A stretch of DNA of 45,659 nt from Actinomycetota bacterium (GTDB taxonomy: Bacteria; Actinomycetota; Actinomycetes; Mycobacteriales; Pseudonocardiaceae). Below are positions 6,479 through 32,831 of the stretch, piece by piece (within the stretch, counting starts at the first letter, position 1; each line of letters opens with the position of its first letter). The position numbers and the translations under genes were made by a program. Below the pieces are notes generated by a model. That model was not told where the DNA came from. It saw only the letters and a program-made list of their open reading frames with translations, and did no database searches. The stretch spans positions 1 through 45,659 of the forward strand of contig JAJPIR010000036.1 of NCBI GenBank assembly GCA_021324675.1, read 5' to 3'.

Positions 6479-6515
6479 CTGCTGAGACCCGCCTGCCGCG
6501 CTCGAAGGTTTGGCC

Positions 6516-8123: not shown

Positions 8124-8149
8124 GGTGACTCCCTTATAGTGCCTTCCGG

Positions 8150-10042: not shown

Positions 10043-10116
10043 GTTAGACCCTCCTGCTCCAAAACAAGAATGCGGGCGACGGCGAATCCATTTCACCCAA
10101 GTTACGGGGTAGGCGT

Positions 10117-10794
10117 ATGGCCGTGCCGGTGAAATGGCCTGACCTGGTGGCCCGCGCACAGTCCCTGGCCAGCGGCGCTGGCCGGCGGATATTGGGTATC
10201 ACTGGAGCGCCGGGGGCTGGCAAGTCAACACTGGCGCGTCGGCTGGTCGGTGCGCTCGGTGATGCCGCGGTCCTGATCGGGATGGACGGGTATCACCTTG
10301 CGCAGGCGGAACTGGAACGGCTAGGGCGGACGGAGCGCAAAGGTGCTCCGGACACTTTCGATGCTGCCGGCTACGTCGCTCTGTTGCGCCGGTTACGCGC
10401 ACCCGACGCCAGCACCGTGTACGCCCCGGAGTTCAGGCGTGCGATCGAAGAACCGATCGCGGGCGCTGTGGCGGTACCGCCTGACGTGTCGCTGGTCGTC
10501 ACCGAAGGCAACTACCTGCTGCTCGATATCGAGCCGTGGTCAGCGGTCCGCGGGTTGCTGGACGAGGTCTGGTTCCTGGCACCCGATGAGGCAACCCGCC
10601 GAGCATGGTTGACCGCCCGGCACTGCCGGTACGGGCGTACCCCGGAACAAGCAGCCGCCCGCGCATCCGGCAGCGACGAGCGCAACGCCCGGCTGGTCGC
10701 GCAGACCTCAGACCGCGCCGACCTGCTTCTCGACCCGACCCACTGGCCTCACACAGGCACGAAGACATATCGGGGTTTCGGGACGGGGAATTAA
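10117..10794 (+). CDS. Nucleoside/nucleotide kinase family P-loop protein
   Basis: A 225-residue P-loop kinase resembling the uridine-kinase/pantothenate-kinase-like family often annotated as nucleoside/nucleotide kinase. Walker A is GAPGAGKST (residues about 31-39), followed by IGMDGYHLA, an acceptor-site-like segment with RKGAPDTFD, and VVTEGNYLLLD as the strand that ends at the catalytic region. A lid-like Arg-rich part, RRAWLTARHCRYGRTPEQA, closes the fold. The substrate could be a nucleoside, a sugar or a vitamin. It is transcribed divergently from prpE with about 74 bp between. The ribosome binding site is weak, so the exact start is less certain. Confidence 0.85.
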   Translation: MAVPVKWPDLVARAQSLASGAGRRILGITGAPGAGKSTLARRLVGALGDAAVLIGMDGYHLAQAELERLGRTERKGAPDTFDAAGYVALLRRLRAPDASTVYAPEFRRAIEEPIAGAVAVPPDVSLVVTEGNYLLLDIEPWSAVRGLLDEVWFLAPDEATRRAWLTARHCRYGRTPEQAAARASGSDERNARLVAQTSDRADLLLDPTHWPHTGTKTYRGFGTGN

Positions 10795-16355: not shown

Positions 16356-16549
16356 TGCGAGCGACCGTGCCGAGCGTCACCCCACGGACCACCTACGTAG
16401 TACGGATCCATTGAGTAAGTACTCGCACCCATTTCGGTCCGTACCAATACGCCATCAGAGCCACATTGGGCCTTGTAGGCACTGTTGCTATCACCTAGTG
16501 TTACTGATTGTAAGTCGGTAGCCCCGAATGAGGGGCAGTAGCCAGTACG

Positions 16550-16860: not shown

Positions 16861-19800
16861 ATGAGCAGGCTGCAGGACCGAGAGCTGGTGGTGGGGATCA
16901 CGCCGTTCGAGGAACCCAATGCCGCTCTGGTAGTCGCACTTGCGCGGGCCGGCTCGCTGGGTGTCCTGGACCTGGGACGGGATTACGACCGGGCACAGGC
17001 CGCGCTGGCGGAAGTATGCCGGTGGTGGTCCGGAACATTCGGGGTACGGCTGCCGATCGGGTGCCCGCTATCACCGGCCGATCTACCCAGCCAGGTCGAT
17101 GTGGTGGTGCTGGACGCCGGCACGGGCCGTCCGGCAGCCCCGGGCCGGCGCATGTTCATTGAGGTGACGTCGGTGACGCAGGCGCATGCAGCGATCCGGG
17201 CCGGGGCTTGGGGCTTGATCGCCAAAGGCGCCGAAGCGGGCGGTCGGGTTGGTGCCACATCAACCTTCGTGCTGTTGCAGCAGTTACTCGGCGACCCCCG
17301 GATCGAGATCCCGATCTGGGCGGCTGGTGGAATCGGACCGCACACCGCTGCCGCGGCCATCGCCGGTGGTGCCGCCGGGGTCGTGCTCGATGGGCAGCTG
17401 GCACTGGTCGCCGAGGCCGACTTGCCGACCCAGGTCGCCGCCGCGATCCGGGCAATGGACGGCACCGAGACGGCAATCATCGGCGGTCACCGCCTTTTCA
17501 CACGTCCGGATGTGCCGGTTGTGAACGCCGATTCCGTCGCAACCCAGTTGGGCGCCCGGCATCTGGGTGCCTTACCCGTCGGGCAAGACGGTGCCCTGGC
17601 CGGTCTGCTGGCTCGGCGCTACGTCACAGCGGGTGGTGTGGTGATGGCAGTCCGCGCGGCGATCACCGACGCACTGCGCGCCGCCCAATCGCAATCGGCG
17701 CGGGAGTCCCGGCCCCTGGTGGTGCAGGGTCCGATGACTCGGGTCAGCGATCAGGCTGGGTTCGCGGCGGCCGTCGCAGCCGCCGGCGGCCTGCCGTTTC
17801 TTGCCTTGGCCTTGAGTGACGGCGAGCAGACCCGCGCATTGCTGGAACAAACGGCTGCCGCCATGGACGGCCGCCCGTGGGGAGTGGGCATTCTTGGCTT
17901 CGTCCCACCGGAGGTGCGTCAGGCACAGCTAGCCGCTGTCCAACGGGTCCAGCCTCCCTACGCGCTGATCGCCGGTGGACGGCCCGCGCAGGCGGTGCCC
18001 CTCGAGGCGGCCGGGATCGAGACGTTCTTGCACGTGCCATCGCCAAGCCTGCTGGATCGGTTCCTGACCGAGGGGGCGCGCCGGTTCGTTTTCGAGGGCC
18101 GCGAATGCGGGGGCCATGTCGGGCGGCTGGCGAGTTTCCCCTTATGGGAAATGCAGCTGCAGCGGCTGCTGGCCTACGACGACGGCCACGGTTGTGCAGA
18201 CCGGTTGCAGGTGCTGTTCGCCGGGGGTATTCACGACGAGCGTTCCGCGGCAATGGTGGCCACGCTGGCCGCGCCACTGATCGAACGCGGTGCGCGGGTG
18301 GGCGTGTTGATGGGCACCGCGTACCTGTTCACACAGGAAGCGGTCGCCGCCGGCGCCATCGCCCCGGTCTACCAGGAAGCAGCGCTGGCTTGCGCGGGCA
18401 CCGTGTTGTTGGAGACCGCGCCCGGGCATGCAATCCGCTGCGCGGATTCGCCGTATGTGCACACCTTCACCGAGACGCGGGCCCGGTTGGCGGCTGCAGG
18501 GCTACCGCGGGATGCAGTGTGGGCGGAGTTGGAGCAGCTCAACTTGGGTCGGTTACGCATCGCAAGTAAGGGCCTGCGCCGTCAAGGTGATGCGCTGGTT
18601 GCGGTTGACGAGCAGGTCCAGCGCCGCGAGGGCATGGTCATGCTGGGTGAGGTGGCCACGCTGCGCCATGAGACAACGACCATCGAAGCGTTGCACCATC
18701 AGGTTACCGAGGGTGCCGCTGCCGTCCTCGCTGCGCGGGTCGCCGAGCTGATCGACGAACCCCTCGAAGTGGCCACGCCACCAGCACAGCCGTTAGAGGT
18801 GGCGATCATCGGTATGGCAGGGATCTTCCCCGGTGCTGAGGATCTGGCAACGTACTGGGCGAATGTGCTGGCCGGGGTAGACGCGGTGACCGATGTCCCC
18901 CCGGAGCGCTGGGACCCGGCAGCGTACCCGCATGCAGCCGGTGCGGGTGGTTTTCTCCCGGATGTTCCCTTCGATGCGCTGGCTTACGGGATCCCCCCAG
19001 CGGCGCTGGCCAGCATTGAGCCAGTCCAGCTGCTGGCGCTCGAGGTGGCTGCCCGCGCGCTACGCGACGCAGGATACGAGCAGCGCCCCTTCGACCGCGA
19101 ACTCACCTCGGTGATCTTCGGCGCGGAGGCGGGCGCCGATCTGGCCAGTGCGTATGGGTTCCGTTCCCTCTATCCCGCGTATCACGGGAAGTTGCCGGCA
19201 GAACTAGAGGCGCAATTGCCAGCACTGACCGAGGACTCCTTTCCTGGAGTGCTCGCCAACGTGATTGCCGGACGGATCGCCAACCGGCTGGATCTCGGTG
19301 GCGCCAACTACGCGGTCGATGCCGCATGTGCATCCTCGCTGGCCGCGATTGACCTGGCGTGCAAGGAACTGCGGGCCGGCACCAGCAGCATGGTGATCGC
19401 CGGTGGCGCCGACGTGCACAACAGCATCCACGATTACCTGATGTTCGCCTCGGTACGCGCCCTGTCGCCCACTGGCCGGTGCCGGCCCTTCGACGCCTCC
19501 GCCGACGGCATCGCACTCGGCGAAGGTGTGGCGTGCGTAGTGCTCAAGCGGCTGGGCGACGCAGAACGCGACGGCGACCGCATCTACGCGGTGATCAAGG
19601 GAATTGGCTCGGCCAGCGACGGGCGCTCGCTCGGGCTCACCGCACCGCGACCCGAGGGTCAGCGCCGGGCGCTTGAGCGCGCCTACCAGATGGCCGGGAT
19701 CTCACCGGCGGACGTCGGGTTGGTAGAGGCCCATGGCACTGGCACCGTGGTCGGCGACCGCACCGAACTGGCGGTGTTGACCGAGTTGTTCTCCGCCGCT

Positions 19801-22800
19801 GGCACAACGATCGGTAGCTGCACGCTGGGATCGGTGAAATCCCAGATCGGGCACACGAAGTGTGCCGCGGGAGTCGCCGGACTGATCAAAGCGGTTCTCG
19901 CGGTGCACGCCGGGGTGCGGCCGCCCACCAGCCAGCTGCGTAATCCGAACCCGTACTGGGATCCTGCCGCCAGCCCGTTCTCCTTTGATGTTGCCGCGCG
20001 GCCATGGCCGTCACCGTCCGCCCGGATTGCTGGCGTGAGCGCATTCGGGTTTGGGGGGACGAATTTCCACGCGGTGGTCTCCTCCTACGAGGGAGCTCCA
20101 CGGCCCCGGCACGGTGTCGACGCCTGGCCGGCAGAGCTTTTCCTGTTCACCGGCCTGGACAGGTCCGCGGCGATCGAGAAGATCGATCGGCTATCCGACC
20201 TGCTCACGACCAATGATGCCGCTGGCCGGCCGTGGCGGTTGCGGGATCTCGCCTGGGGTCTTTCAGGCGAGTCCGGTCACGATCCGGTCTGGGTGGCTGT
20301 GGTAGCCGAGGACCTGGATGATCTCGCGACGAAGCTGGCGCGGGCCCGGTCCGGTGCCAGCGGTGACGGTGTTTTCGTCGCGTCCGAAGACGCGAGCGCA
20401 ACAGGTCAGGTCGCGTTCCTGTTTCCCGGCCAGGGCAGCCAACGGCCCGGCATGCTGGCCGACCTCTTCGTGGCATTTCCACGGTTGCAGCGACTCCTGG
20501 AGCTCGGCAGGCGGTGGGCCGGCGCGATGTTCCCGGCCGCCGCTTTCGGTGACAACGACGCTGCACGGCAGCGCGCGATACTCACCGATACGCGGGTCGC
20601 CCAGCCAGCGCTGGGCATCGCTGGGCTGGCCATGCACGAGTTGCTGACCTCACTAGGCGTGCAAGCAGACCATCTCGGCGGACACAGCTACGGCGAGCTC
20701 GTCGCACTCGCCGCCGCTGGCGCGGTCAGCGCCGGTGACCTTCTCGAACTCAGCGAGGCCAGAGGCCAAGCCATCCTCACTGCAGCTGGATCCGATCCCG
20801 GCACGATGGCCGCGGTCGCCGCAACCGCTGAGCAGGTGCGGGCCGTGCTCGGGGACGGACCGGTCGTGGTGGCCAACCACAACGCGCCCGGCCAGACCGT
20901 CATCTCCGGACCTGCTCTGGCCGTGGATGCGGCACTGAAACGGCTGGGTGAGGCAGGACTGACCAGCGCGCGGCTCCCAGTGGCCTGTGGCTTCCACAGC
21001 CCGGTGGTGGCCGATGCCTCCCGTACTTTCGCAGCTGAGCTGGGATGCCGTGCATTCGGTTCACCGCGGCTACCGGTGTGGTCAAACACCACAGCTGCGC
21101 TGTATCCGGGTGATCCCGCCGCCATCAAGGCAATGCTGGCTGCCCACGTCGCCGAGCCAGTTCGGTTTGTGGAACAAGTGGAGGCGATGTACGCGGCGGG
21201 GGCGCGGATTTTCGTCGAAGCAGGGCCGGGTCGGGTGCTCACCCGACTGGTCAACGAGATCCTTGGCGACCGGCCGCACACGTCCGTCCCTACAGACGTA
21301 CCCGGCGAGTCCGGACTGCGGCGCCTGCTGCTAGCCCTGGCCGAGCTCGCCGTCGCCGGCGTACCGATCGATACGGCCGGACTTTTCCAGGGTCGGGAGG
21401 CCCGCCCGGTGCCCGCTTCGGTGGCGACAACAACGTCGGGAACAGTCGCTCCTCGCCGCGCCGGATGGGTGCTGAATGGCCACCTGGTCAAAACCGCTGA
21501 CGGGCAATACCTCCGGGGCGGGCTACGTCCGGCCCAGCAGGTGGCTGCACCAGCCGGCGAGGCAGCATCCAACGCCGGCAGTACAGCCGGGCGAGAGGCG
21601 ACCGTACTGGAGTTCCTGCGCAGCACCCGGGAACTCGTCGCGGCCCAACGCGAGATCATGTTGGGGTATCTCGGTACCACTCCAGCACCTGCCGAACTAC
21701 CGGCTCCCGGCTTGCCGCCCGTAGTGGTATCGCCAGCCCTGGCCGGGCAGCTCGCCCCAGCGCAGGACGCGACGGCTAATACGAGCGTCGACGCGGCTCC
21801 TCCGGAACGAGTCGAACCGGCTGAACTGACGCCTGGTTCGGTGCTGGCCACCGTACGGTCCCTGGTAAGCAACCGAACCGGCTACCCGGTGGACATGCTC
21901 GGAGCTGACCTCGATCTGGAGGCAGATCTCAGTATCGACTCCATCAAACGCACTGAGCTGGTCGGCCTGCTCACCGACCAGCTCGGGCTGGCGTGCGCCG
22001 GCAGCCCGCTGGATGACTCGGTGGCCGAGGAGCTGAGCCGGCTTCGCACACTGCGCAGCATCGTGGACTGGATCGTCAACCGACTTGGCAGGCAATTACC
22101 GGCCGACCCAGCACCGACCTCCACTGCCCAGTCGAGCAGACGCCCGCGCGCGCGCCGCTACCTCGTCGAGGCCACCTCATTGCCACTGCATCCTGGCCGG
22201 CCGGGGACGTCGATGTCCGGGCGGCGGGTCACCATTATTGGCGACGGCGGCGGCCTCGCGCTGGACCTGTCCGTCCTGCTGGAACAGCACGGCGCCGAGG
22301 TACGCCTGCTGGGCATGGATCAGATCACCCAGAAGACGCGCGCCGATGCACTCGTCTACCTAGCAGCACTGGATCGTGGTCGGGCGGCAATCCTGCCGGA
22401 CGGGTTCATCGCGCTCCGCGATGCCATCCGCGGTGGCGTGAGCAAGTTGCTTGTCGTGACAGGTTCTGGAGGTCGCTTCGCTCGGACGCCCAACCCCAAC
22501 GGTGTTGCCGGGGTGGGCCTGGCGGGTCTGGTCCGCACGATCGCACGTGAATTTCCCGATCGGTTTGTCCGTGTCGTCGATGTGGACCCGAAGGAGGAGC
22601 CGGCCCATCTCGCCGAGCATCTGCTCACTGAGCTGCTCACTGCTGATGCACCGAGTGCGGTGGGGTACGCGGCCGGTGAACGGGTCACGTTGCAGGTTGT
22701 ACCAGCGCCGCTGGAGCACCGCGCAGCCGGCGTGGCCGGGCTGGGGCCAGAGTCAGTGGTACTGCTGACCGGTGGTGCTCGAGGCATCACTGCGCGAGTC

Positions 22801-23616
22801 GCCGCCGGCATGGCTCGCGCGAGTGGCTGCCATCTGGAGCTGGTCGGTCGGACTTCGCTGCCCGGCGGCGATGAGGAGCCGGTGACCGCAGCGGCAGCTG
22901 ACCGCGTGACTTTGCGGCGGGTACTTGCCCAGTCCCGGGGTGGTACACCGGTCGAGATTGACGCAGCAGCCAGCCGCCTTTTGGCCGAGCGAGAGATCCG
23001 TGCCACGCTGGGCGAGCTGGCTGGGCTGGCCGCCTCAGTCCACTACTCGACGGTGGATGTTCGCGATCCGGCGTCGGTCACGGCCCTGGTGAATGACGTG
23101 TACCGGCGGCATGGCCGGCTCGACGGGATCGTGCACGGCGCGGGGCTGCTCGCTGACCGGTTGCTCGTCGACAAGACTGCCGAGGATTTCACCCAGGTAT
23201 GGGAGACCAAAGTCAATGGGGCACGGGCGCTGGTTGAGGCGGCGCGGGGAGACCTCAGGTTCCTGGTGCTGTTCGGCAGCGTGGCCGGGGTATTCGGCAA
23301 TCGCGGCCAGGCCGATTACTCCGCGGCGAACGACGCGCTAGACACCTTGGCCCGGATCTGGACTCCGCGTGCCTGCGGCCGGGTGGTCGCAGTGGATTGG
23401 GGGCCATGGGCGGCGTTCGAAAACGGGACAGGGATGGTCTCAGCCGAACTCGAGCGCGAGTACGCCAGACGCGGCATTGGTCTGATCGAGCCGGAGGACG
23501 GGGTTGCTTGCCTGCTCGCCGAACTGACCAGCGGCACCGAGCCTCAGGTCGTGTACATGTGCGCTGACCCAGCCGCGTTTGAGGGTGCCGCCTTCGGGGT
23601 CGGCCAGGATGGCTGA
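16861..23616 (+). CDS. Iterative type I polyketide/lipid synthase: NPD-NPD-KS-AT-ACP-KR
   Basis: A 2251-residue synthase from the ATG at 16861. Residues 1-270 form an NPD (PfaD/nitronate-monooxygenase-like) barrel with EAGGR at 125-129. Residues about 283-600 form a second barrel starting VVQGPMTRVSD, with ECGGH at 415-419, as in PKS-linked NPD domains. KS spans about 645-1075 with C823, H958 and H998. AT spans about 1180-1480 with S1276 in GHSYGE and R1301, the carboxylate-binding Arg; GFHS favours malonyl-CoA. An Ala/Pro-rich linker leads to one ACP with S1694 in LSIDSIKRTEL, the form seen in PUFA synthases. KR spans about 1780-2220 with GGARGIT, S2140, Y2153 and N2157. No DH or thioesterase is present; DH is in the next gene, which overlaps by 8 nt. 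The NPD barrels are candidate enoyl reductases. The product is unknown. Confidence 0.93.
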   Translation: MSRLQDRELVVGITPFEEPNAALVVALARAGSLGVLDLGRDYDRAQAALAEVCRWWSGTFGVRLPIGCPLSPADLPSQVDVVVLDAGTGRPAAPGRRMFIEVTSVTQAHAAIRAGAWGLIAKGAEAGGRVGATSTFVLLQQLLGDPRIEIPIWAAGGIGPHTAAAAIAGGAAGVVLDGQLALVAEADLPTQVAAAIRAMDGTETAIIGGHRLFTRPDVPVVNADSVATQLGARHLGALPVGQDGALAGLLARRYVTAGGVVMAVRAAITDALRAAQSQSARESRPLVVQGPMTRVSDQAGFAAAVAAAGGLPFLALALSDGEQTRALLEQTAAAMDGRPWGVGILGFVPPEVRQAQLAAVQRVQPPYALIAGGRPAQAVPLEAAGIETFLHVPSPSLLDRFLTEGARRFVFEGRECGGHVGRLASFPLWEMQLQRLLAYDDGHGCADRLQVLFAGGIHDERSAAMVATLAAPLIERGARVGVLMGTAYLFTQEAVAAGAIAPVYQEAALACAGTVLLETAPGHAIRCADSPYVHTFTETRARLAAAGLPRDAVWAELEQLNLGRLRIASKGLRRQGDALVAVDEQVQRREGMVMLGEVATLRHETTTIEALHHQVTEGAAAVLAARVAELIDEPLEVATPPAQPLEVAIIGMAGIFPGAEDLATYWANVLAGVDAVTDVPPERWDPAAYPHAAGAGGFLPDVPFDALAYGIPPAALASIEPVQLLALEVAARALRDAGYEQRPFDRELTSVIFGAEAGADLASAYGFRSLYPAYHGKLPAELEAQLPALTEDSFPGVLANVIAGRIANRLDLGGANYAVDAACASSLAAIDLACKELRAGTSSMVIAGGADVHNSIHDYLMFASVRALSPTGRCRPFDASADGIALGEGVACVVLKRLGDAERDGDRIYAVIKGIGSASDGRSLGLTAPRPEGQRRALERAYQMAGISPADVGLVEAHGTGTVVGDRTELAVLTELFSAAGTTIGSCTLGSVKSQIGHTKCAAGVAGLIKAVLAVHAGVRPPTSQLRNPNPYWDPAASPFSFDVAARPWPSPSARIAGVSAFGFGGTNFHAVVSSYEGAPRPRHGVDAWPAELFLFTGLDRSAAIEKIDRLSDLLTTNDAAGRPWRLRDLAWGLSGESGHDPVWVAVVAEDLDDLATKLARARSGASGDGVFVASEDASATGQVAFLFPGQGSQRPGMLADLFVAFPRLQRLLELGRRWAGAMFPAAAFGDNDAARQRAILTDTRVAQPALGIAGLAMHELLTSLGVQADHLGGHSYGELVALAAAGAVSAGDLLELSEARGQAILTAAGSDPGTMAAVAATAEQVRAVLGDGPVVVANHNAPGQTVISGPALAVDAALKRLGEAGLTSARLPVACGFHSPVVADASRTFAAELGCRAFGSPRLPVWSNTTAALYPGDPAAIKAMLAAHVAEPVRFVEQVEAMYAAGARIFVEAGPGRVLTRLVNEILGDRPHTSVPTDVPGESGLRRLLLALAELAVAGVPIDTAGLFQGREARPVPASVATTTSGTVAPRRAGWVLNGHLVKTADGQYLRGGLRPAQQVAAPAGEAASNAGSTAGREATVLEFLRSTRELVAAQREIMLGYLGTTPAPAELPAPGLPPVVVSPALAGQLAPAQDATANTSVDAAPPERVEPAELTPGSVLATVRSLVSNRTGYPVDMLGADLDLEADLSIDSIKRTELVGLLTDQLGLACAGSPLDDSVAEELSRLRTLRSIVDWIVNRLGRQLPADPAPTSTAQSSRRPRARRYLVEATSLPLHPGRPGTSMSGRRVTIIGDGGGLALDLSVLLEQHGAEVRLLGMDQITQKTRADALVYLAALDRGRAAILPDGFIALRDAIRGGVSKLLVVTGSGGRFARTPNPNGVAGVGLAGLVRTIAREFPDRFVRVVDVDPKEEPAHLAEHLLTELLTADAPSAVGYAAGERVTLQVVPAPLEHRAAGVAGLGPESVVLLTGGARGITARVAAGMARASGCHLELVGRTSLPGGDEEPVTAAAADRVTLRRVLAQSRGGTPVEIDAAASRLLAEREIRATLGELAGLAASVHYSTVDVRDPASVTALVNDVYRRHGRLDGIVHGAGLLADRLLVDKTAEDFTQVWETKVNGARALVEAARGDLRFLVLFGSVAGVFGNRGQADYSAANDALDTLARIWTPRACGRVVAVDWGPWAAFENGTGMVSAELEREYARRGIGLIEPEDGVACLLAELTSGTEPQVVYMCADPAAFEGAAFGVGQDG

Positions 23617-26600
23617 GCCGGTCGAGGTGGCCATTGTCGGGATGGCCGCCGTGTTCCCCGGTTCGCCCAACTTGGCCACTTACTGGTCCAACATCCTCGA
23701 CGGCGTAGACGCGATTGCAGAAGTACCCGCTTCCCGCTGGGACCCGTGCTACTACGACCCGCAGGCTGCCGCGACCCGGCACAGCGACCGGCTGTACTGC
23801 CGCCGCGGTGGTTTCATCGACCATGCCACCTTCGACCCGACCCGGTACGGGATCATGCCCAGCGCGGTGCAAGGTGCCGAGCCCGACCAGCTTCTCGCGC
23901 TGCACGTCGCCGCGGAAGCGATCCGCGACGCCGGCGGGAACGACCAGCTGGGCGACCGGTCCCGAGTCGGCGTGATCATCGGTCGGGGGGGTTACCTCAC
24001 CCCTGGCCTGGCCCGGTTGGACCAGCGAATCCGGACGGCAAACCAGCTCGTCACCACTCTGCGCGAGCTACTGCCCGACCTTGCAGACGCCGAGTTGGAG
24101 CGAGTCCGACATGCGTTCCAATCGCGGCTCGGCCCCGACCGACCGGAAGCCGCGATTGATTTGGTTCCCAACCTGGTCGCGTCCCGGGTGGCCAACCGCC
24201 TCGATCTCGCCGGACCCGCATACACGCTCGATGCCGCCTGCGCCTCGTCGCTGCTCGCCATCGACCACGGAGTCGCCGAGCTGATCGCCGGCCGCTGCGA
24301 CGCGATCCTCGCAGGGGGGGTACACCACTGCCACGACATCACGTTGTGGAGTGTGTTCAGCCAGCTCGGCGCACTAAGCCCGAGCCAGCGGATCCGGCCC
24401 TTCCACCGGGATGCCGACGGCATCCTCATCGGCGAAGGCACCGGGATGGTGGTGCTCAAACGCCTCGCCGACGCCCGCAACGATCGGATCTACGCGGTGA
24501 TCCGCGGAACCGGGATCGCCAGCGATGGCAGGGCAAGCAGCCTGATGAGCCCGCGTGCTGAGGGCCAGGTGCGGGCCATGGAACGGGCGTGGCAGGCCGC
24601 TGGACTGGATCCCACCGAACCGGCTGCACTTGGGCTGCTCGAAGCTCATGGCACTGCCACTCCCGCTGGCGACCACACCGAACTAACGTCACTCACCCAG
24701 GTTTTCGGTCGACCTAATGGCGCCGGTCATGACATCGGCATTGGCTCAGTGAAGTCGATGATCGGCCACACCATGCCGGCCGCCGGCATCGCCGGCCTCA
24801 TCAAGGCCGCGCTCGCCGTGCACCACGGCGTGCTGCCGCCCACCCTGCACTGCGACGACCCGCACCCAGCACTGGCCGAGTCCAGGTTCGCGCCGATCAC
24901 CGAAACCCGGCCATGGGATCTGCGCAGTGACAGGCCGCGCCGAGCAGCAGTGGACGCCTTCGGCTTCGGCGGCATCAATGCGCATGCCATCCTGGAGCAG
25001 CCACCAGCCACCCGACATTCCCGCCGGATCAAGCCGGCCGGTCCCGAGCCGGTACTGCTCCTGGCCGCCAGCACACCGACCGAGCTGGGGCGGCTCCTTC
25101 AGGTACCGGACATCAGTTTGCTCCCCCGGGACGGCACCTCCGCCCTACCAGCGAGCGGGGCCTGCCGGCTGGCCATCGTCGCGCCCACCGCGCGCCGCCT
25201 GGCGCTGGCGCGCAGGATCGTCGGGCAGGGCAGACCGTGGCGGGGTCGGGATGACATCTGGTTCACCACCACGCCACTGAGATCAGAACCCGGAGCAGGT
25301 CAGCTGGCGTTTGTCTTTCCGGGATTGGAGCAGGAGTTCAACCCGCGGATCGACGATGTCGCTGAACACTTCGGGCTCGACCGGCCGAACCTCGGTGACA
25401 ACGCGGTACTCGGTCGCCATGGCCTTGACGTGTTGAGGGTCGGCCGGCTGCTCGATGCGGCACTACACCAGCTCAACATCATGCCGGACCTGGTTGCTGG
25501 GCACAGCATCGGCGAATGGAATGCGATGACGGCCGCCGGCATATACCCGAACCGGGCAGTCGACGAGCTCATCGCCTCCTTCGACCCAGCAACGCTGCAG
25601 GTTCCTGGACTGGTGTTTGCTGCACTGGGGTGCGGCGCCGAACAGGCTGCCCAGGTCATCGAGGGGCTGGACGGGGTGGTGGTCTCCCACGACAACTGCC
25701 CGCACCAGTCGATCATTTGCGGTGACGAAGCTGCCGTGGCCGCCGTCCTGAAGCAGCTGCAGGCGCGCCGGATCGCCGGTCAAGTGCTGCCGTTCCGGTC
25801 TGGCTTCCATTCACCGATGCTGGCGCCATACCTGAACCGGATTCTGGCCATCTGCAGCCGCCTTACGGTGCGACCACCGGTACTGCCGATCTGGTCGGCC
25901 ACCACTGTCGATCGCTACCCGGACGGTCCCGACCAGATCCGCGCCCTCGCTGCTCGCCACCTTCTCGAACCGGTCCGTTTCGGTCCGCTGATCCAGCGCC
26001 TCTACAACGCCGGCGCGCGTGCCTTCGTACAGGTCGGCACCGGGAGCCTGCCTGCCTTCGTTACCGACACACTGGGTGATCTGCCGCATCTTGCGGTGAC
26101 CGCCAACACGTCGCGGCGGTCCGGGCTCGACCAGTTACGCCGGGTGGCGGCGGCATTGTGGGTGGAGGGCTGGGCACCCCGATTTGATCAGCTGCCGCTC
26201 ACGTCACCCGTCGGGTCCCCGCCTTCTCGCGGGACTGCCATACCCCTTGCCTTAGGGGCCCCGCTGGTCCGGCTCGGGCAAGACGTTGGAGCACTCATTC
26301 CGGCCCGGGATGCCTCTGCATTGCCAACGCGGGGAGCCGCTAGGGAGCATCCGGTGCTGGCAGAGCTCGACGCCGCACTCCGGCAGGTCACAGCCACCGC
26401 CACGGAGGTCGTGGATTCGTGGGCACGGGTCACCTCCCGGCAGGCCAGCACGACGCAAACGCTGTCTCTGGCCGCCATGCCGGACCTTCTCGATCACTGC
26501 TTTTACCGGCAACCCGACGGCTGGCCGGAGCTGGCCGATCGGTACCCCGTGGTGCCGCTGACCACGATGCTCGAGCTCATGGCAGACGCTGCCCGGGAGT

Positions 26601-27994
26601 TGTCTCCTGGCCGCACGGTCGTCGGCCTGAAGGACATCCGCGCAATGCGCTGGCTAGCGGTTGCGCCCCCGGCCAAGGTGACGACCAGGGCATCAGTGGG
26701 CTCGGATGGCAACGTGACCGTGGTGCTCGACGGCTACGCGCGCGCTACCGTACTGCTCGCCGACAGCTACCCGTCTTCGTACCCGGCGGCCTCTGAACCG
26801 TCGCTGTCCGGGCAACGGCCCTGCGAGGTGACCGCCCAGGAGCTGTACCGGGATCGCTGGATGTTCCACGGCCCCGCATTCCAGGGCGTCACCGAGCTCG
26901 GTCCGATAGCTGATGAAGGCATCCTCGGTGAGCTGCTCGTCCCCCCAGCACCGGGAGCTCTGCTGGACAATGCCGGGCAACTGCTTGGCTTCTGGATCAT
27001 GATGAGGACTGCCCGAGACCGGCTTGCCTTCCCAGCTGGGATCGACCGGCTGCACTTCTACGGCCCAGCTCCTGGAGCTGGTGAACGAGTTCGATGCGCG
27101 GTCCGGATCGTCTCTGTCTCGGCCACCGAGGTCGTCGCTGACCTTGAGCTGTGGCGCGCGGACGGCCAGCTGTGGGCCCGCATTGATCGGTGGCGGGATC
27201 GCCGATTCAACACTGACGAGGTGACCTGGCCGGTCTTCGTCTTCCCGGAACACAACCGCATCGCACAACGCCAGCCTGGCGGATGGTTCCTGGTCCAGGA
27301 CCGGTGGCCAGATCCGGCCACGAGGGAACTCGTCATGCGTCGCTATCTGAGTGCCGCTGAACGAGCGGAATACCACCGGCGCACCCCACGGGCGTCCCAG
27401 CAGTGGCTGCTGGGACGGATCGCGGTCAAAGATGCGGTGCGGCAATGGCTTTGGGACGCCGGCGCCGGCCCGGTATTCCCCATCGAGATCACAGTAATTA
27501 ACGATGCGTCGGGACGCCCGCGAGTGGTGGGCCCATTCACCGAACCGCCGGAGGTATCGCTGGCGCATACCGGATCGCTGGGCGCCGCATTCGTCGGCGA
27601 TCCCGGGTGCGCAGCCGGAGTAGGCATCGACATTGAACAGATCACAGATCGCGATGACCGAACCGTCAACGCGATTCTCACCACAACCGAACGCGACCTG
27701 CTCGACACGTTGTGTCTGTCGCAGCAAAGCCGTTCAAGCTGGGTCACCCGGTTTTGGGCCGCCAAAGAGGCGGTGGCCAAAGCCGCCGGTACCGGGCTGG
27801 CTGGCCGACCGCACGAGTTTGTCGTCGAGCGGGTCGACGGAGATCGGCTACTGGTGGCAACGGGACACGCAGCGCCGAGCCGATGGGTGCACGCCGCAGT
27901 CAGCACCGAACCCGAACCGTACGCGGTGGCCTGGACTTTGCCGGAGATTGCAGGCCAAAAGTCGAAACACACGCAGGAGGGGACAACCGGATGA
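23609..27994 (+). CDS. Polyketide/lipid synthase: KS-AT-DH-phosphopantetheinyl transferase
   Basis: A 1461-residue partner of the preceding synthase; the ATG lies inside its stop region (ATGGCTGA). A TTG at 23579 is in frame but less likely. KS (residues 1 to about 460) is complete with C211, H347 and H387, so it is not a chain-length-factor-like dead copy. AT (about 565-830) has S633 in GHSIGE, but the usual GQGxQ reads GLEQE and the Arg expected 25 residues after the Ser is F658, so it may move a non-dicarboxylic acyl group. DH (about 950-1230) has H963 and D1120/Q1124 (DNAGQ). The C-terminus is an Sfp-type PPTase with D1341 and E1343 in GIDIE, and K1386 in WAAKEAVAKA. It probably activates both ACPs. 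There is no ACP or KR of its own. Confidence 0.92.
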   Translation: MAEPVEVAIVGMAAVFPGSPNLATYWSNILDGVDAIAEVPASRWDPCYYDPQAAATRHSDRLYCRRGGFIDHATFDPTRYGIMPSAVQGAEPDQLLALHVAAEAIRDAGGNDQLGDRSRVGVIIGRGGYLTPGLARLDQRIRTANQLVTTLRELLPDLADAELERVRHAFQSRLGPDRPEAAIDLVPNLVASRVANRLDLAGPAYTLDAACASSLLAIDHGVAELIAGRCDAILAGGVHHCHDITLWSVFSQLGALSPSQRIRPFHRDADGILIGEGTGMVVLKRLADARNDRIYAVIRGTGIASDGRASSLMSPRAEGQVRAMERAWQAAGLDPTEPAALGLLEAHGTATPAGDHTELTSLTQVFGRPNGAGHDIGIGSVKSMIGHTMPAAGIAGLIKAALAVHHGVLPPTLHCDDPHPALAESRFAPITETRPWDLRSDRPRRAAVDAFGFGGINAHAILEQPPATRHSRRIKPAGPEPVLLLAASTPTELGRLLQVPDISLLPRDGTSALPASGACRLAIVAPTARRLALARRIVGQGRPWRGRDDIWFTTTPLRSEPGAGQLAFVFPGLEQEFNPRIDDVAEHFGLDRPNLGDNAVLGRHGLDVLRVGRLLDAALHQLNIMPDLVAGHSIGEWNAMTAAGIYPNRAVDELIASFDPATLQVPGLVFAALGCGAEQAAQVIEGLDGVVVSHDNCPHQSIICGDEAAVAAVLKQLQARRIAGQVLPFRSGFHSPMLAPYLNRILAICSRLTVRPPVLPIWSATTVDRYPDGPDQIRALAARHLLEPVRFGPLIQRLYNAGARAFVQVGTGSLPAFVTDTLGDLPHLAVTANTSRRSGLDQLRRVAAALWVEGWAPRFDQLPLTSPVGSPPSRGTAIPLALGAPLVRLGQDVGALIPARDASALPTRGAAREHPVLAELDAALRQVTATATEVVDSWARVTSRQASTTQTLSLAAMPDLLDHCFYRQPDGWPELADRYPVVPLTTMLELMADAARELSPGRTVVGLKDIRAMRWLAVAPPAKVTTRASVGSDGNVTVVLDGYARATVLLADSYPSSYPAASEPSLSGQRPCEVTAQELYRDRWMFHGPAFQGVTELGPIADEGILGELLVPPAPGALLDNAGQLLGFWIMMRTARDRLAFPAGIDRLHFYGPAPGAGERVRCAVRIVSVSATEVVADLELWRADGQLWARIDRWRDRRFNTDEVTWPVFVFPEHNRIAQRQPGGWFLVQDRWPDPATRELVMRRYLSAAERAEYHRRTPRASQQWLLGRIAVKDAVRQWLWDAGAGPVFPIEITVINDASGRPRVVGPFTEPPEVSLAHTGSLGAAFVGDPGCAAGVGIDIEQITDRDDRTVNAILTTTERDLLDTLCLSQQSRSSWVTRFWAAKEAVAKAAGTGLAGRPHEFVVERVDGDRLLVATGHAAPSRWVHAAVSTEPEPYAVAWTLPEIAGQKSKHTQEGTTG

Positions 27995-28293
27995 CGTCTG
28001 AGCAAGTTCTGGCCGATGTCCGGGCCATATTGATCGAGATCATGGGTGCTGAGTATGCGTTGAGTCTGGATATTGGTATGGAGACGGCTTTTGAGGCAGA
28101 TCTCGAACTGGAGAGCATCGAGTTCGTCAAGCTGTCGACCATGCTTGCCGAGCATTACGATGACCGGATTGATTTCGTGGGCTTTTTGGCCGACAAAAAC
28201 CTCAACGAGATCATCGATATGACCGTCGGCGACGTGGTCACCTACATTGCCCGCTGTCTGGATGGCACTCATGCGGTGACCGTCGATGCCTGA
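27991..28293 (+). CDS. Free-standing acyl carrier protein
   Basis: A 100-residue carrier protein. The pantetheine attachment site is S42 in LELESIEFVKL, with Glu in place of the common Asp before Ser. GGAGGGG at 27977-27983 and an ATGA overlap with the synthase stop support the start. The rest, EHYDDRIDFVGFLADKNLNEIIDMTVGDVVTYI, is an ACP helix II-IV pattern with an extended middle. It is separate from the ACP inside the first synthase and has a different site (ESIEF against DSIKR). It may therefore carry a starter, receive the finished chain or present it to the tailoring enzymes. Confidence 0.9.
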   Translation: MTSEQVLADVRAILIEIMGAEYALSLDIGMETAFEADLELESIEFVKLSTMLAEHYDDRIDFVGFLADKNLNEIIDMTVGDVVTYIARCLDGTHAVTVDA

Positions 28294-29086
28294 GGTCGTG
28301 GCCAACGGCGTGCGGCTACACGTCCAACGATTGTCGCCCCAACACCGCCTGCTCACCCGGGCCCAGCCGGTGGTGTTCATCCATGGGCTGGGTATGGACA
28401 ACATGTCCAGCTACTACTACACCCTCGCCAACCCGGTCGCCCAAGCCGGCGCCGAGGTGGTCCTGTACGACCTACGCGGCCACGGCCTGTCCGAACGGCC
28501 ACGCACCGGCTACCGAGTCGCGGATTCAGTGGCCGACCTGGCTGCACTACTTGACGCCCTTGGCATTGACGGACCAGTTCACCTGGTCGGCAACAGCTAC
28601 GGCGGCATCGTGGCACTGAGTTTCGCCGCCGACTGTCCCCACCGTGTGGCCAGCCTGGTGCTCATCGAAGCACACTTCACCGTCGCCGGCTGGGCCGAAC
28701 AAGTCGCCGCCGAACGCGACCGCATCGAAACCGCCGTCGCCGGCGCTCGGCGCAGCGGATGGCTCGACCAACTAGGACGCAAAGTCACCCGGCTGCTCGC
28801 CATGGCCGACGAGCTGATCAACCACACCACGTTTCTGGCCGATCTCAAGGCAGTACAACCCCTCCCGGCCAGCCAGCTGCGCCAGCTGACCTGTCCGGTA
28901 CGCGCCGTATACGGCGAGCACTCCGACGTGATCGACTACGCCCGCGAACTCGACGCGTGCCTCCCCCATTGCGTGCTGACGGTGCTAGCGGGTTGCGGTC
29001 ACTCGGTGCTCATGGACGCCACCGCAGCGCTGCGTGACATCGTGCTGGACTGGCTGACCACCCAGACCACCGCCGCGGTGCGATGA
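28286..29086 (+). CDS. Alpha/beta hydrolase, candidate product-release or acyl-transfer enzyme
   Basis: A 266-residue alpha/beta hydrolase. The ATG overlaps the ACP stop by 8 nt (ATGCCTGA). Catalytic elements: oxyanion region VVFIHGLGMDN, nucleophile S104 in VGNSYGGIVAL, acid in GEHSDVIDYA and His in GCGHSVLMDA. No signal peptide, so it is cytoplasmic. Neither synthase has a thioesterase domain, and this gene directly follows the free ACP, so it is the natural candidate for chain release or hydrolysis of a carrier-bound acyl group. It could also be an esterase or epoxide-hydrolase-like enzyme acting later. That role is inferred from position. Confidence 0.88.
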   Translation: MPEVVANGVRLHVQRLSPQHRLLTRAQPVVFIHGLGMDNMSSYYYTLANPVAQAGAEVVLYDLRGHGLSERPRTGYRVADSVADLAALLDALGIDGPVHLVGNSYGGIVALSFAADCPHRVASLVLIEAHFTVAGWAEQVAAERDRIETAVAGARRSGWLDQLGRKVTRLLAMADELINHTTFLADLKAVQPLPASQLRQLTCPVRAVYGEHSDVIDYARELDACLPHCVLTVLAGCGHSVLMDATAALRDIVLDWLTTQTTAAVR

Positions 29087-30249
29087 GCCGGTTCTTGTTC
29101 GTCGTCCCTCCCTTCGCCGGCCACATTCTGCCCACCCTGGCCGTAGGTCAGCAGCTCATCGATCGGGGCCACACCATCGCCTGGACCGGGCACCCGGCCA
29201 CCCTCGGCCCGCTGCTGCCCCCCGGAGCCCACGTCATCCCGATCGCAGCAGAGTTTTCCGGGCAGAGGCTGGCCGAGATTCGCAGCCGTTCGCTCGGCCT
29301 GCGCGGCACAGCGGCCTTCCGATTTCTCTGGGCAGAGGTGCTCATCCCGCTAGCCCAATCCATGGTTCCGGCAGTCACCGCCGTGGTAGACGACTTCCGT
29401 CCCGATGTGCTGGTCGTCGACCAGCAGGCGCCCGCCGGAGCCCTGGTGGCCCGCCAACGAGGACTGCCCTGGGCGACTTCGGCCACCACCTCCGCGGAGC
29501 TGACCGATCAGTTCACCACCATGCCGAAAGTCGGCGCGTGGGCACGGCAATGCTTGTTCGATTTCCAACGCGACTTCGCCGTGGCAGAACCTGTCGATCT
29601 GCGGTTTTCTGACCATCTTGTGCTGGTATTCAGCACAATCGCCTTGCTGGGGCCCAGCTGCGAATTCCCCGGCCATTACGCGTTCGTGGGCCCATCGATC
29701 GGTGAACGAGCCGGTGTACCTGGTTTTCCCTGGAATTGGCTCGACCCCCACCGCGCACACGTGCTCGTCAGCCTGGGCACGCTCAATCAAGAGGCCGGAC
29801 GGCGGTTCTTTACCACCGTGCTAGCAGCGATAGCACCACTAGCCGACCAGCTCCAAGCCATCATCGTGGCTCCACCGCACCTGATCGACTCGCTGCCAGA
29901 CCACGTCCTGGTCCGCGAGTTCGTTCCGCAGCTCGACCTGCTCCCGCATCTGCACGCCGTGGTCTGCCACGCCGGGCACAACACCGTCTGCGAAACCCTC
30001 AGCCATGGCGTCCCTCTTGTGGTCGCACCTATCCGCGACGACCAGCCCGTCATAGCCAACCAAGTCACCACCGCCGGAGCCGGCATCCGGGTCCACTTCA
30101 GCCGCGTCAGCGCCGGTGAGCTACGCACGGCACTGACCACTGTGCTTGCCAACCCCTCCTACCGCAGCGCGGCACGACGCATCCAGACCTCGTTCACTGC
30201 TGCTGGCGGGGCGGCGGCCGCTGCTGATCATCTGGAGAAATTGTTATGA
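29083..30249 (+). CDS. GT1 (MGT/UGT-like) glycosyltransferase
   Basis: A 388-residue glycosyltransferase of the nucleotide-sugar GT-B type used on natural products. The N-terminal acceptor domain begins FVVPPFAGHILPTLAVGQQLIDRGH. The C-terminal donor site has VCHAGHNTVCETLSHGVPLVVAPIRDDQPVIAN, the macrolide-glycosyltransferase-like signature with the Asp-Gln sugar-binding pair. The start overlaps the hydrolase stop (ATGA). It probably adds a sugar to a hydroxyl of the synthase product. No sugar-biosynthesis genes lie in the operon, so a common activated sugar would have to be the donor. Confidence 0.92.
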   Translation: MSRFLFVVPPFAGHILPTLAVGQQLIDRGHTIAWTGHPATLGPLLPPGAHVIPIAAEFSGQRLAEIRSRSLGLRGTAAFRFLWAEVLIPLAQSMVPAVTAVVDDFRPDVLVVDQQAPAGALVARQRGLPWATSATTSAELTDQFTTMPKVGAWARQCLFDFQRDFAVAEPVDLRFSDHLVLVFSTIALLGPSCEFPGHYAFVGPSIGERAGVPGFPWNWLDPHRAHVLVSLGTLNQEAGRRFFTTVLAAIAPLADQLQAIIVAPPHLIDSLPDHVLVREFVPQLDLLPHLHAVVCHAGHNTVCETLSHGVPLVVAPIRDDQPVIANQVTTAGAGIRVHFSRVSAGELRTALTTVLANPSYRSAARRIQTSFTAAGGAAAAADHLEKLL

Positions 30250-31292
30250 CCGATCCGTACGAGGCGTGCAGGTTGTACTACCAGACAGAGTTGGCCAGCG
30301 GAATCGAAAGGTTTCTCGAACCGCGACGGGACACCTGTCCCTGGTGTGGTTCCGCCAGCCTATCAATACGGTTGCGTACCACCGATCTCATTCAGCGCAA
30401 GCCGGGCCGGTTCACGTTGGAACAGTGCGGCGCGTGCCGGCATATCTTCCAGAATCCGCGGCTGACGCCAGCGGGACTGGATTTCTATTACCGTGATTTT
30501 TATGACGGTCTCGGCCAAGAACAGGCGGAAAAGGCATTCGCGGCGACGGGACGCTCCTATCGTGGGCGGGTGGACATGATCAAGCGATTCACCACGCCGC
30601 GAGTATGGCTAGACGTCGGTGCCGGTTACGGCCATTTCTGCCGACTCGCCCGTGAGGTGTGGCCGGGCGCCCGCTTCGACGGCTTGGACCTCAGCGTCAG
30701 CGTCGAGGAGGCTCAGCGCCGTGGCTGGATTGACCGCAGCTACCTGGGAGAATTCGTCACGCTGGTCGACAAACTGGCCGGGCGCTATGACGTCGTCAGC
30801 ATGCATCACTACCTAGAGCACACCAGGGAGCCATTCGACGAGCTCGATGCGGCGGCGAAAATTCTGTCCACCGGCGGCTACCTGCTGATCGAACTGCCCG
30901 ACCCTGAGTCGTTGTTGGGTCATCTGTTCGGCCGCTGGTGGCTGCCCTGGTTCCAGCCACAACACCAGCACATGATCCCCGTCCGTAACCTCATACAAGC
31001 GCTCGCCGATCGCGGGTTGTCGACTGTCGCTGTCGAACGCGGCGAAGCCCATCAAAGCGTCGACCTGTTCGTCAGCTTGGTTCTGGCGCTCACCGCCATC
31101 GCCCCCGACCCACAGCTGCCGTGGCTGCCCACCCGGGCAACGCGCGTCAGCCAGATACGGCACACCGTGGTGTGGGCAGCGGGCCGGCCATTGCTTGTGA
31201 TCGCGTACTTACTCGACAACCTGCTTGGCCATATCGTGCGCCGTACTCGTGGGGGCAATACCTACCGGGTGCTCGCTCGCAAGGACGGCTGA
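30246..31292 (+). CDS. SAM-dependent methyltransferase with N-terminal zinc-ribbon-like Cys4
   Basis: A 348-residue class I methyltransferase. C31/C34 (CPWC) and C61/C64 (CGAC) form a likely zinc ribbon. The SAM-binding core has motif I LDVGAGYG at 122-129, FDGLDLS for the ribose-binding acidic residue, and DVVSMHHYLEHTREP for motif II. The C-terminal 80 residues are hydrophobic in part. The start overlaps the glycosyltransferase stop by 4 nt. It could methylate the acyl chain, a hydroxyl or the attached sugar. Zinc-ribbon methyltransferases are common among sugar and surface-polymer enzymes, so sugar methylation is possible. Confidence 0.88.
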   Translation: MTDPYEACRLYYQTELASGIERFLEPRRDTCPWCGSASLSIRLRTTDLIQRKPGRFTLEQCGACRHIFQNPRLTPAGLDFYYRDFYDGLGQEQAEKAFAATGRSYRGRVDMIKRFTTPRVWLDVGAGYGHFCRLAREVWPGARFDGLDLSVSVEEAQRRGWIDRSYLGEFVTLVDKLAGRYDVVSMHHYLEHTREPFDELDAAAKILSTGGYLLIELPDPESLLGHLFGRWWLPWFQPQHQHMIPVRNLIQALADRGLSTVAVERGEAHQSVDLFVSLVLALTAIAPDPQLPWLPTRATRVSQIRHTVVWAAGRPLLVIAYLLDNLLGHIVRRTRGGNTYRVLARKDG

Positions 31293-32831
31293 TTGGAAGA
31301 CACCGTGCAGTCATTGGCACAGCCGGACGAAAACCGCCTGCTACTGGTAGAGCAAGCAAAACCCCGGGATACGGAATATCCACCCACTCCTTGGCTGGCG
31401 CGGTGGCCTGTGCTGGCGATCGCCGGCGGCGTCGGGTTGGTGTTGTTGCTCGCCAGTGGACGAGTCGGTTATTTCGCCGACGAATTGTACTTCTTAGCCG
31501 CTGGCCGCCATTTGTCCTGGGGATATGCTGATCAAGGGCCGCTGGCGCCCCTCCTGGCCCGTGCTATGGACAGTATCTTTCCGGGCTCGCTGGTCGCCGA
31601 ACGGCTGCCGGTCACGATACTGACGGCCGCGGGCGTGTTCGTAGCCGCACTGATCGCCCGGGAGCTAGGTGGCCAACGCCGAGCACAAGTGCTGACCGCC
31701 GGCGCGTACGCAATGGGAATGTTGACAGGTGGTCATCTTTTCACGACCGCTGCAATCGATGTAGTCATGTGGACGGCAGCTACCTGGTTACTGGTGCGCT
31801 GGGTGCGCCTTCGTGACGATCGCTTGATCATCGCGCTCGGTGGCCTCACGGCGATCGCTTTGCAGAACAAATTACTTATTGTCGCTTTGTGGATCGTCGC
31901 TGGTCTCAGCGTGTTCGTTTTCGGCCCACGAGAGCTGCTGCGCAGACCAGCATTGTGGCTCGGCGCATCCATTGCTGTGGTTGCGATACTGCCCAACCTG
32001 ATCTGGCAAGCCCACCACGGATGGCCGCAGCTGGAACTGACTCGGGTGATCGCTAGCGAGCCTTTTTCAGGCGGAGGGCTGGCTTTCTTGCCGCTGGCGC
32101 TCGCTAACGCGGGAATCCTCCTCGGAGCAACGCTGGTCTGCTACGGCTTGTGGCGTCTGCTGCGGTCATCGGAGCTGCGTCCGTATCGCTTCCTGGGGTG
32201 GACGCTGCTGGGACTGACTACGCTTTTCCTTATCACCGGCGGTCGATTCTACTATATCCAGGGTTTATTCCCGGTTTGCTGGGCTGCGGGCACGGTGGAG
32301 CTACAACGGCATAGTCCAGCGCGCTGGTGGCGATGGGTGTTTAGTGTGCCAGTTTATGTTCTGTCGACAGTCGTCGCACTTACGGGCCTACCGGTTTTGC
32401 CTGCTTCCTGGCCGACCCCGGCATGGCCCGTATCCCAGGCAAGTCTCGGCTGGCCAGAGGTGACGGAGACAGTCGCCGACGTCTACCACTCACCCTCCTT
32501 GGCATCCCGGCACAACATGGTGGTAATGACCGAATGGTTCTGGGATGCAGCCGCTATCGACCGGTTCGGCCCAGCGCAGGGAATACCGCACGTCTACAGC
32601 GCCCACCGCGGTTACTGGTACTTCGGCGCGCCTCCGGATAGCGCCGACACCGTCCTGTTCGTCGGCTCCGACCCTGCTTACCTGCACCAGTTCTTCACTG
32701 AAGTACACCAAGTCGCCACCATCACCTCTGGCCCCGCAATGAACCTGTTCTCATACCGCACACCGGTCTGGCTCTGCTCCGGTCAGCACGAACCATGGTC
32801 ACGACTGTGGCCCCAACTCCGCCACCTCTGA
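31293..32831 (+). CDS. Multi-span GT39/ArnT-like glycosyltransferase family membrane protein
   Basis: A 512-residue integral membrane protein with a cytoplasmic tail, then about ten hydrophobic helices and an extracytoplasmic C-terminal domain. YFADELYFLAAGRHLSWGYADQGPLAPLLAR is the first-loop DE...D-x-x-P signature of the PMT/ArnT (GT39) group, which uses lipid-linked sugars on the outer face of the membrane. The TTG at 31293 directly abuts the methyltransferase stop; a GTG at 31305 is an alternative. As the last gene of the operon it may add a second sugar to an exported lipid or attach the product to an envelope acceptor. It has four TTA codons and looks less GC-rich than the synthases. 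Confidence 0.85.
   Translation: MEDTVQSLAQPDENRLLLVEQAKPRDTEYPPTPWLARWPVLAIAGGVGLVLLLASGRVGYFADELYFLAAGRHLSWGYADQGPLAPLLARAMDSIFPGSLVAERLPVTILTAAGVFVAALIARELGGQRRAQVLTAGAYAMGMLTGGHLFTTAAIDVVMWTAATWLLVRWVRLRDDRLIIALGGLTAIALQNKLLIVALWIVAGLSVFVFGPRELLRRPALWLGASIAVVAILPNLIWQAHHGWPQLELTRVIASEPFSGGGLAFLPLALANAGILLGATLVCYGLWRLLRSSELRPYRFLGWTLLGLTTLFLITGGRFYYIQGLFPVCWAAGTVELQRHSPARWWRWVFSVPVYVLSTVVALTGLPVLPASWPTPAWPVSQASLGWPEVTETVADVYHSPSLASRHNMVVMTEWFWDAAAIDRFGPAQGIPHVYSAHRGYWYFGAPPDSADTVLFVGSDPAYLHQFFTEVHQVATITSGPAMNLFSYRTPVWLCSGQHEPWSRLWPQLRHL

Follow-up and report, generated by a model that had tools for sequence, protein, structure and literature searches.

The synthase operon

The window analysed here, a 45,659-nucleotide stretch of DNA from a bacterium of the Pseudonocardiaceae (GenBank contig JAJPIR010000036.1, our contig C325), comes from a genome of 5.63 Mb assembled in 364 contigs. 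It carries on the forward strand seven genes (16861-32831) for two multidomain proteins, named here synthase A and synthase B, a discrete acyl carrier protein (ACP2), an alpha/beta hydrolase, a GT1-type glycosyltransferase, a methyltransferase and a PMT_2 protein. Consecutive genes share 8, 4, 8, 4, and 4 bases and the final pair abuts; therefore, the seven genes are taken as a single operon. An earlier note on this DNA had assigned to the two synthases ketosynthase (KS), acyltransferase (AT), acyl carrier protein (ACP), ketoreductase (KR), dehydratase (DH), NPD-type flavin and phosphopantetheinyl transferase (PPTase) domains, and all of these were found by Pfam.

Synthase A (16861-23616, 2251 aa) has the domain order NPD1-NPD2-KS1-AT1-ACP1-KR according to Pfam and NCBIfam. 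Its reading frame opens at 16528, and 16861 was picked as the probable start from the upstream sequence and the coordinate in the earlier note. In residues counted from 16528, the Pfam matches comprise two NMO domains, KS (757-1136), AT (1297-1612), ACP (1775-1826), and KR (2077-2295). NPD1 (16876-17685) is a TIM barrel of the flavin mononucleotide (FMN) type with Arg replacing the catalytic His (PF03060, 40.9 bits; structural model), and NPD2 (17701-18735) is a FabK-like enoyl reductase barrel with GGH. A fold search with the NPD pair gave an alignment lying almost entirely on NPD2; the fold of NPD1 is thus assigned from Pfam and the model. Then follow KS1 (18790-20100) with intact Cys-His-His residues, the malonyl-type AT1 (20416-21363) with Ser, His, and an Arg at Ser+25, ACP1 (21850-22005), whose motif LSIDSIKR contains the DSIKR reported previously, and KR (22756-23412, PF08659). 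Another contig of this genome, 3.7 kb long (L002, G000:C346, 1-3708), encodes a piece 91% identical to residues 343-1575 of synthase A, which points either to strains mixed in the assembly or to a second, closely similar copy.

Synthase B (23609-27994, 1461 aa), whose ATG at 23609 lies in the 8-base overlap with the end of synthase A, has the order KS2-AT2-DH-PPTase; in residues counted from 23579, Pfam places KS at 16-425, AT at 635-821, PS-DH at 1079-1211, and PPTase at 1347-1451. KS2 (23624-24853) is intact, and its triad C211/H347/H387 was given exactly in the earlier note when residues are numbered from the ATG at 23609. AT2 (25481-26041) has an acyltransferase fold and lacks the malonyl-binding Arg, DH (26813-27211) is of the polyketide synthase (PKS) type (PS-DH), not FabA-like, and the protein ends with the PPTase (27617-27931, PF01648). 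Neither a FabA-like DH, whose absence had been noted before, nor an extra KS domain resembling a chain-length factor (CLF) was listed among the Pfam matches of the two synthases at E up to 0.001.

The remaining genes encode ACP2 (27991-28293), with its serine in LESIEF and NCBIfam acyl carrier protein matches below cut-off; the hydrolase (28286-29086, PF00561), a candidate release or ester-forming enzyme; the glycosyltransferase (29083-30249), for which the nearest NCBIfam model is MGT, below its cut-off; a methyltransferase dependent on S-adenosylmethionine (30246-31292, PF13489); and the PMT_2 membrane protein (31293-32831, PF13231), possibly a second glycosyltransferase. The earlier description of a single ACP holds within synthases A and B, but not for the operon, as ACP2 has a gene of its own. 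Upstream of the operon, three adenylate-forming enzymes are encoded in a row (4754-10159: 4754-6478 on the forward strand, 6516-8123 and 8150-10159 on the reverse strand).

Conservation and natural variants of the cluster

A scan of named genomes with synthase B yielded 327 relatives; the best 80 of these, two plasmid records, and 15 further genome stretches made up the 97 compared loci, the architecture not having been checked in all 327. Some redundancy is present, L010 and L026 being >99% identical to L009 in KS2. Among the best 80, seven Pseudonocardiales/Pseudonocardiaceae metagenome genomes were 72-86% identical over the best segment, and the rest, mostly from Streptomyces, 47-54%. Two Streptomyces plasmids have the same operon in the order synthase A, synthase B, ACP, hydrolase, glycosyltransferase, methyltransferase. 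NPD1, NPD2, KS1, AT1, and KR occurred in all 77 loci with at least 7.5 kb of upstream sequence (ACP1 was detected in 76), and among the 84 loci with at least 6 kb downstream, ACP2 was found in 84, the glycosyltransferase in 83, the hydrolase in 81, and the methyltransferase in 53. A close relative has a second synthase pair (L134:17001-19999, reverse strand; G002:C109), with PMT_2, methyltransferase, and glycosyltransferase genes on the opposite strand.

Of the genomes sampled, a probe covering AT2 and DH matched 80/200 in the window's family (18 of 46 genera) and 54/394 in its class (13 of 138 genera). As many actinomycete genomes retain this two-protein order, the domain order is not uncommon, contrary to what had been proposed. 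One taxonomic family (f32, including G312 and G262) accounts for 32 of the 54 class-wide matches, a count given without the number of f32 genomes searched. The nitrogenase gene nifH scored over the cut-off in eight of the 11 cluster-bearing f32 genomes tried (controls, 3/14); the three genomes with the cluster and without nifH argue against a function linked to nitrogen fixation.

Alignment of the loci demonstrated that the catalytic residues of most domains are retained. In KS1 the Cys is present in 86/86 and each His in 85/86, and in KS2 the Cys and the second His are present in 97/97 and the first His in 96/97. The active Ser is found in 89/89 ACP1 and 94/94 ACP2 sequences, the KR Tyr in 94/95, and the DH His and Asp in 95/96 and 96/96, respectively. 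The hydrolase nucleophile is Ser in 84 and Cys in seven of 91 sequences, and its His is invariant (91/91). At the cut-offs used, no relative of the methyltransferase or of DH was found in the Protein Data Bank.

Two pairs of domains show a division between the typical and the altered form. First, NPD2 has the catalytic His in 85/86 sequences, while NPD1 has Arg at this position in 74/85 and His in one. According to the available text of PMC13311796, this His is proposed to be catalytic in FabK and PfaD. The flavin pair at the front of synthase A resembles two FabK-type reductases, one of them dead and the other live. Second, AT1 has Arg 25 residues past the active Ser in 87/88 sequences. At the same position AT2 has Phe in 82/97 and Arg in none, both its Ser and His being kept in 97/97; its structural model has the AT fold (pLDDT, the predicted local distance difference test score, 86.7). 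An Arg so placed binds the malonyl carboxylate, as in FabD (S92/R117).

Several related clusters differ in gene or domain content. Seven of them (L160, L161, and L170-L174) lack KS2, synthase B being reduced to AT2-DH-PPTase, with the remainder kept within the fetched stretches (in L170 and L171, NPD1 falls beyond them). Of the nine loci fetched mainly for short reading frames five were without KS2, L160 and L161 having been found earlier, and because of this choice the number seven does not reflect a frequency. In a KS1 tree of 50 rows the seven make up a single clade (100/97) within the family, a topology that makes a single loss of KS2 probable; the ArsA-like outgroup is also without KS2, but this domain is present in the deep-branching L085, and its sister domain in the NPD-fused group described below. 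One genome, G044, carries KS2-plus and KS2-minus forms together, and with the KS2-less clade it offers a natural test of the role of the second ketosynthase in an iterative synthase. In another related cluster (L176:1554-4628, reverse strand) the order is KS2-DH-PPTase, AT2 not being detected. Among 83 frames of relatives with KS1 and KR, 70 have one ACP, 12 have two, and one has three.

The methyltransferase gene is replaced in close relatives by one encoding a wax ester synthase (WS/DGAT) acyltransferase (L012:16091-17700, identified by Pfam, and L011:16676-18271, 66% identical to that of L012), and an ABC exporter is present in some relatives lacking the methyltransferase; both would suit an acylated or exported glycolipid. 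At L183:146-7044 (reverse strand), four consecutive homologs of the window's methyltransferase are located beside the glycosyltransferase, as if several positions were methylated.

Ketosynthase phylogeny and the proposed product

In total 91 KS rows were cut out, and five CLF rows were omitted from both trees, leaving 86 in the first (LG+G4); for the mixture-model tree of 49 rows, family rows were thinned and two long rows (L149 and L146) omitted. Reference labels were assigned from domain order, those of the enediyne references (L152-L156) from frame length and domain order only. In the mixture-model tree, KS1 of the family, with two KS2-less rows inside, is one clade (100/100); its sister group (96/91) is made up of the ArsA-like rows and an NPD-fused group (L136/L139), and the PfaA-type rows come next (94/92). 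KS1 is not nested inside the ArsA-like rows. The KS2 rows likewise make up a single clade (100/99), whose sister is the second KS of the NPD-fused group (99/95), and the putative enediyne and the modular KSs are each separate (100/100). The 86-row tree agrees on both family clades; there, the KS1-ArsA grouping receives only 92/58, with a long-branch warning. A placement of KS2 with PfaC-type KSs, seen in that tree (87/68), disappeared under the mixture model and is not claimed.

These trees bear out the expectation that the proteins are secondary-lipid type synthases with KS clades apart from the PfaA-type, PfaC-KS, putative enediyne, and modular references. Among the rows, which include no HglE, Type M, or characterized Azotobacter ArsA sequences, neither KS falls within a characterized family of known product and identical domain order: KS1 branches as a sister of the ArsA-like rows, and synthase B is unlike ArsD.

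Two further synthases came to light during this analysis. L136 and L139 (G006:C551 and G005:C505) represent, in the genus of the window, another NPD-fused synthase with two KSs, of which one is sister to KS2 and the other groups with ArsA-like KSs. On a Rhodobacteraceae plasmid, a synthase with an NPD barrel before KS-AT-ACP-KR (L149:6904-14079) adjoins genes for a TauD-type dioxygenase and a methyltransferase, and one annotated as PPTase.

From the domains, residues, operon structure, conservation, and phylogeny we infer, with a probability of about two in three, that the product of the operon is a glycosylated long-chain lipid, built by an iterative type I synthase belonging to the polyunsaturated fatty acid (PUFA) synthase/ArsA lineage. 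The lipid character is suggested by the position of KS1 beside ArsA-like and PfaA-type KSs, both from lipid lineages, and apart from the modular PKSs. In the proposed mechanism, the ACPs would be activated by the built-in PPTase, AT1 would charge ACP1 with malonyl units, and KS1, aided by KS2, would carry out the condensations. Each round would be reduced by KR, the PKS-type DH, and the FabK-like NPD2, either fully or with hydroxyls left in the chain, NPD1 acting as a non-catalytic barrel partnering NPD2. AT2, having no Arg to hold malonate, could shift an uncharged acyl chain, bringing a starter in or handing the completed chain on to ACP2. The glycosyltransferase might then place a sugar on a hydroxyl, the methyltransferase and the PMT_2 protein might add further decoration, and the hydrolase would release or esterify the chain.

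Several observations weigh against this assignment. The methyltransferase is missing in 31 of the 84 loci, and PMT_2, present on the same strand in only two of the 84 downstream regions of relatives, is nearly private to the close kin of the window. The PPTase Asp and Glu are each kept in 81/95 sequences and gone in some relatives, in which this domain may be worn, and the acid position of the hydrolase is poorly conserved (Asp in 46/91). The conservation of synthase B itself follows by construction, because the loci were collected by similarity to it. Finally, the glycosyltransferase also resembles macrolide glycosyltransferases, which makes a non-lipid product conceivable. Such a product would be a glycosylated, macrolide-like reduced polyketide, for which the alpha/beta hydrolase could serve as a macrolactonizing thioesterase, and it is favored by MGT being the model nearest to the glycosyltransferase; yet the KSs branch with lipid synthases, apart from modular PKSs, and there is one set of iterative domains only, and we consider this alternative rather improbable.

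Another rather improbable alternative is a macrocyclic glycolipid resembling cycloviracin, fattiviracin, or glucolypsin, in which the hydrolase would link two glycosylated hydroxy fatty acids head to tail. As described in the available text of PMC4365757, these actinomycete compounds contain hydroxy fatty acids from C18 to C33 and glucose, and the outer sugars of cycloviracin are methoxylated at C2. It is because they hold glycosylated, partly O-methylated hydroxy fatty acids that such a product can be envisaged for an operon combining a fully equipped iterative synthase with a glycosyltransferase, a methyltransferase, and a potentially ester-forming hydrolase; the four methyltransferase homologs of L183 and the occurrence of relatives in Streptomyces and Pseudonocardiaceae point in the same direction. 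However, nothing links the cluster to a known producer, most clusters have one glycosyltransferase versus several sugars on cycloviracin, and a literature search under the three names, not including the spelling glucolipsin, listed no title concerning a gene cluster.

Returning to the glycosylated lipid, a wider proposal that goes well beyond it, and that we regard as distinctly speculative, is that the clusters specify a glycolipid family common to many actinomycetes, Frankia probably included. Here the dead and live FabK-type barrels would make up a built-in enoyl reductase, the second KS-AT would set chain length or hydroxyl pattern, and the orphan macrodiolide glycolipids named above would be among the products; if so, the loss of KS2 in one clade would yield a naturally occurring series of lipids that are shorter or bear fewer hydroxyls. 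The core of five genes (two synthase proteins, ACP, hydrolase, and glycosyltransferase) recurs across actinomycetes, and literature searches, mostly unable to reach subscription papers, found no product for the cluster. If a glycolipid is indeed formed, a lipid class of actinomycetes so far unassigned becomes open to experiment.

Comparison with known systems

The synthases share with Pfa systems of types A, B, and L the KS-AT-ACP-KR order, the DSIKR ACP, an NPD-fold enoyl reductase, and a PPTase, and the PfaA model TIGR02813 is the best NCBIfam match of both proteins. Its scores of 919.8 bits (synthase A) and 481.3 bits (synthase B) are, however, under the cut-off of 1010.1; NPD2 is FabK-like, with no PfaD model among those listed at E up to 0.01. 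The tandem ACP array is missing, ACP1 being single in the window, as are the FabA-like DH/isomerase pair, in whose stead the DH is PKS-type, and the CLF. The intact second KS had been seen as a contrast to PfaC. KS2 is indeed intact, but so is the KS of PfaC, which has a CLF as its neighbor; what distinguishes synthase B is AT2 in the place of this CLF. With these defining domains missing, a PUFA synthase was rejected as very improbable. An enediyne synthase was rejected too: the enediyne PKS is a single chain, while two chains are present here, with KSs in a clade separate from the putative enediyne references, in line with the difference pointed out earlier.

The hgl heterocyst glycolipid systems (Type F) are described, in the accessible portions of PMC3098273 and PMC11804610, as a PUFA-like synthase without DH/isomerase plus a glycosyltransferase, giving a glycolipid; by that description hglC is KS-CLF-AT, unlike the KS2-AT2 of synthase B. 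Type M, as listed in the available part of Shulse and Allen (2011; PMC3098273), includes Actinosynnema mirum, Frankia, Renibacterium, and S. avermitilis. Actinosynnema pretiosum, a match at the genus level only, carries the present cluster and has no TIGR02813 match over the cut-off (controls, 0/14). Two Frankia-like nifH genomes contain both the cluster and a PfaA over this cut-off, so Type M could be either. Clusters with the antiSMASH label hglE-KS have been reported in Streptomyces olivoreticuli and Lentzea, no product being given in the accessible text (PMC12472026, PMC9120177); this is a label and not a product, and the S. olivoreticuli strain reported there differs from the one behind L027. 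Another antiSMASH label in S. olivoreticuli, "13% hexacosalactone A", led nowhere, hexacosalactone A being a polyene macrolide, judging by the title of a reference. The cluster has possibly been catalogued already, as Shulse-Allen Type M or antiSMASH hglE-KS.

Also among the closest systems are those of Type P (ars), to which Beijerinckia indica ATCC 9039 is assigned in the available part of Shulse and Allen (2011; PMC3098273). The operon on Beijerinckia plasmid pBIND02 encodes a 2674-aa NPD1-NPD2-KS-AT-ACP-ACP-KR protein and a 629-aa DH-PPTase protein, and has two genes annotated with the KAS III C-terminal domain in place of type III PKSs. The order of synthase A is therefore a known one, shared with ArsA-like proteins having two ACPs in Beijerinckia and one in Methylosinus (pMSC49a), as in the window. 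The dead-live pattern is shared as well, ArsA-like proteins having Arg or Gln in NPD1 and GGH in NPD2. Azotobacter ArsA makes C23-C25 fatty acids, according to the accessible text of PMC4824345.

Although this order and the common DH-PPTase unit favor a phenolic-lipid (ars) synthase, KS1 lies outside the ArsA-like rows, KS2-AT2 is additional, and no type III PKS (PF00195) was matched in the operon or anywhere in the source genome, which is 95% complete (controls matched in 5/14 known genomes); given the lack of such a match, this candidate was rejected as extremely improbable. The window's operon has a discrete ACP, a hydrolase, and a glycosyltransferase after the synthases; in Beijerinckia, too, a gene for a glycosyltransferase comes after the operon, no kinship between the two glycosyltransferases being implied. 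The ars partner protein is DH-PPTase without a KS, and synthase B, by its domains, is such a protein with KS2-AT2 placed ahead of it. Taken together, the synthase pair is a widespread variant of secondary-lipid synthase, less unusual than the earlier note held.

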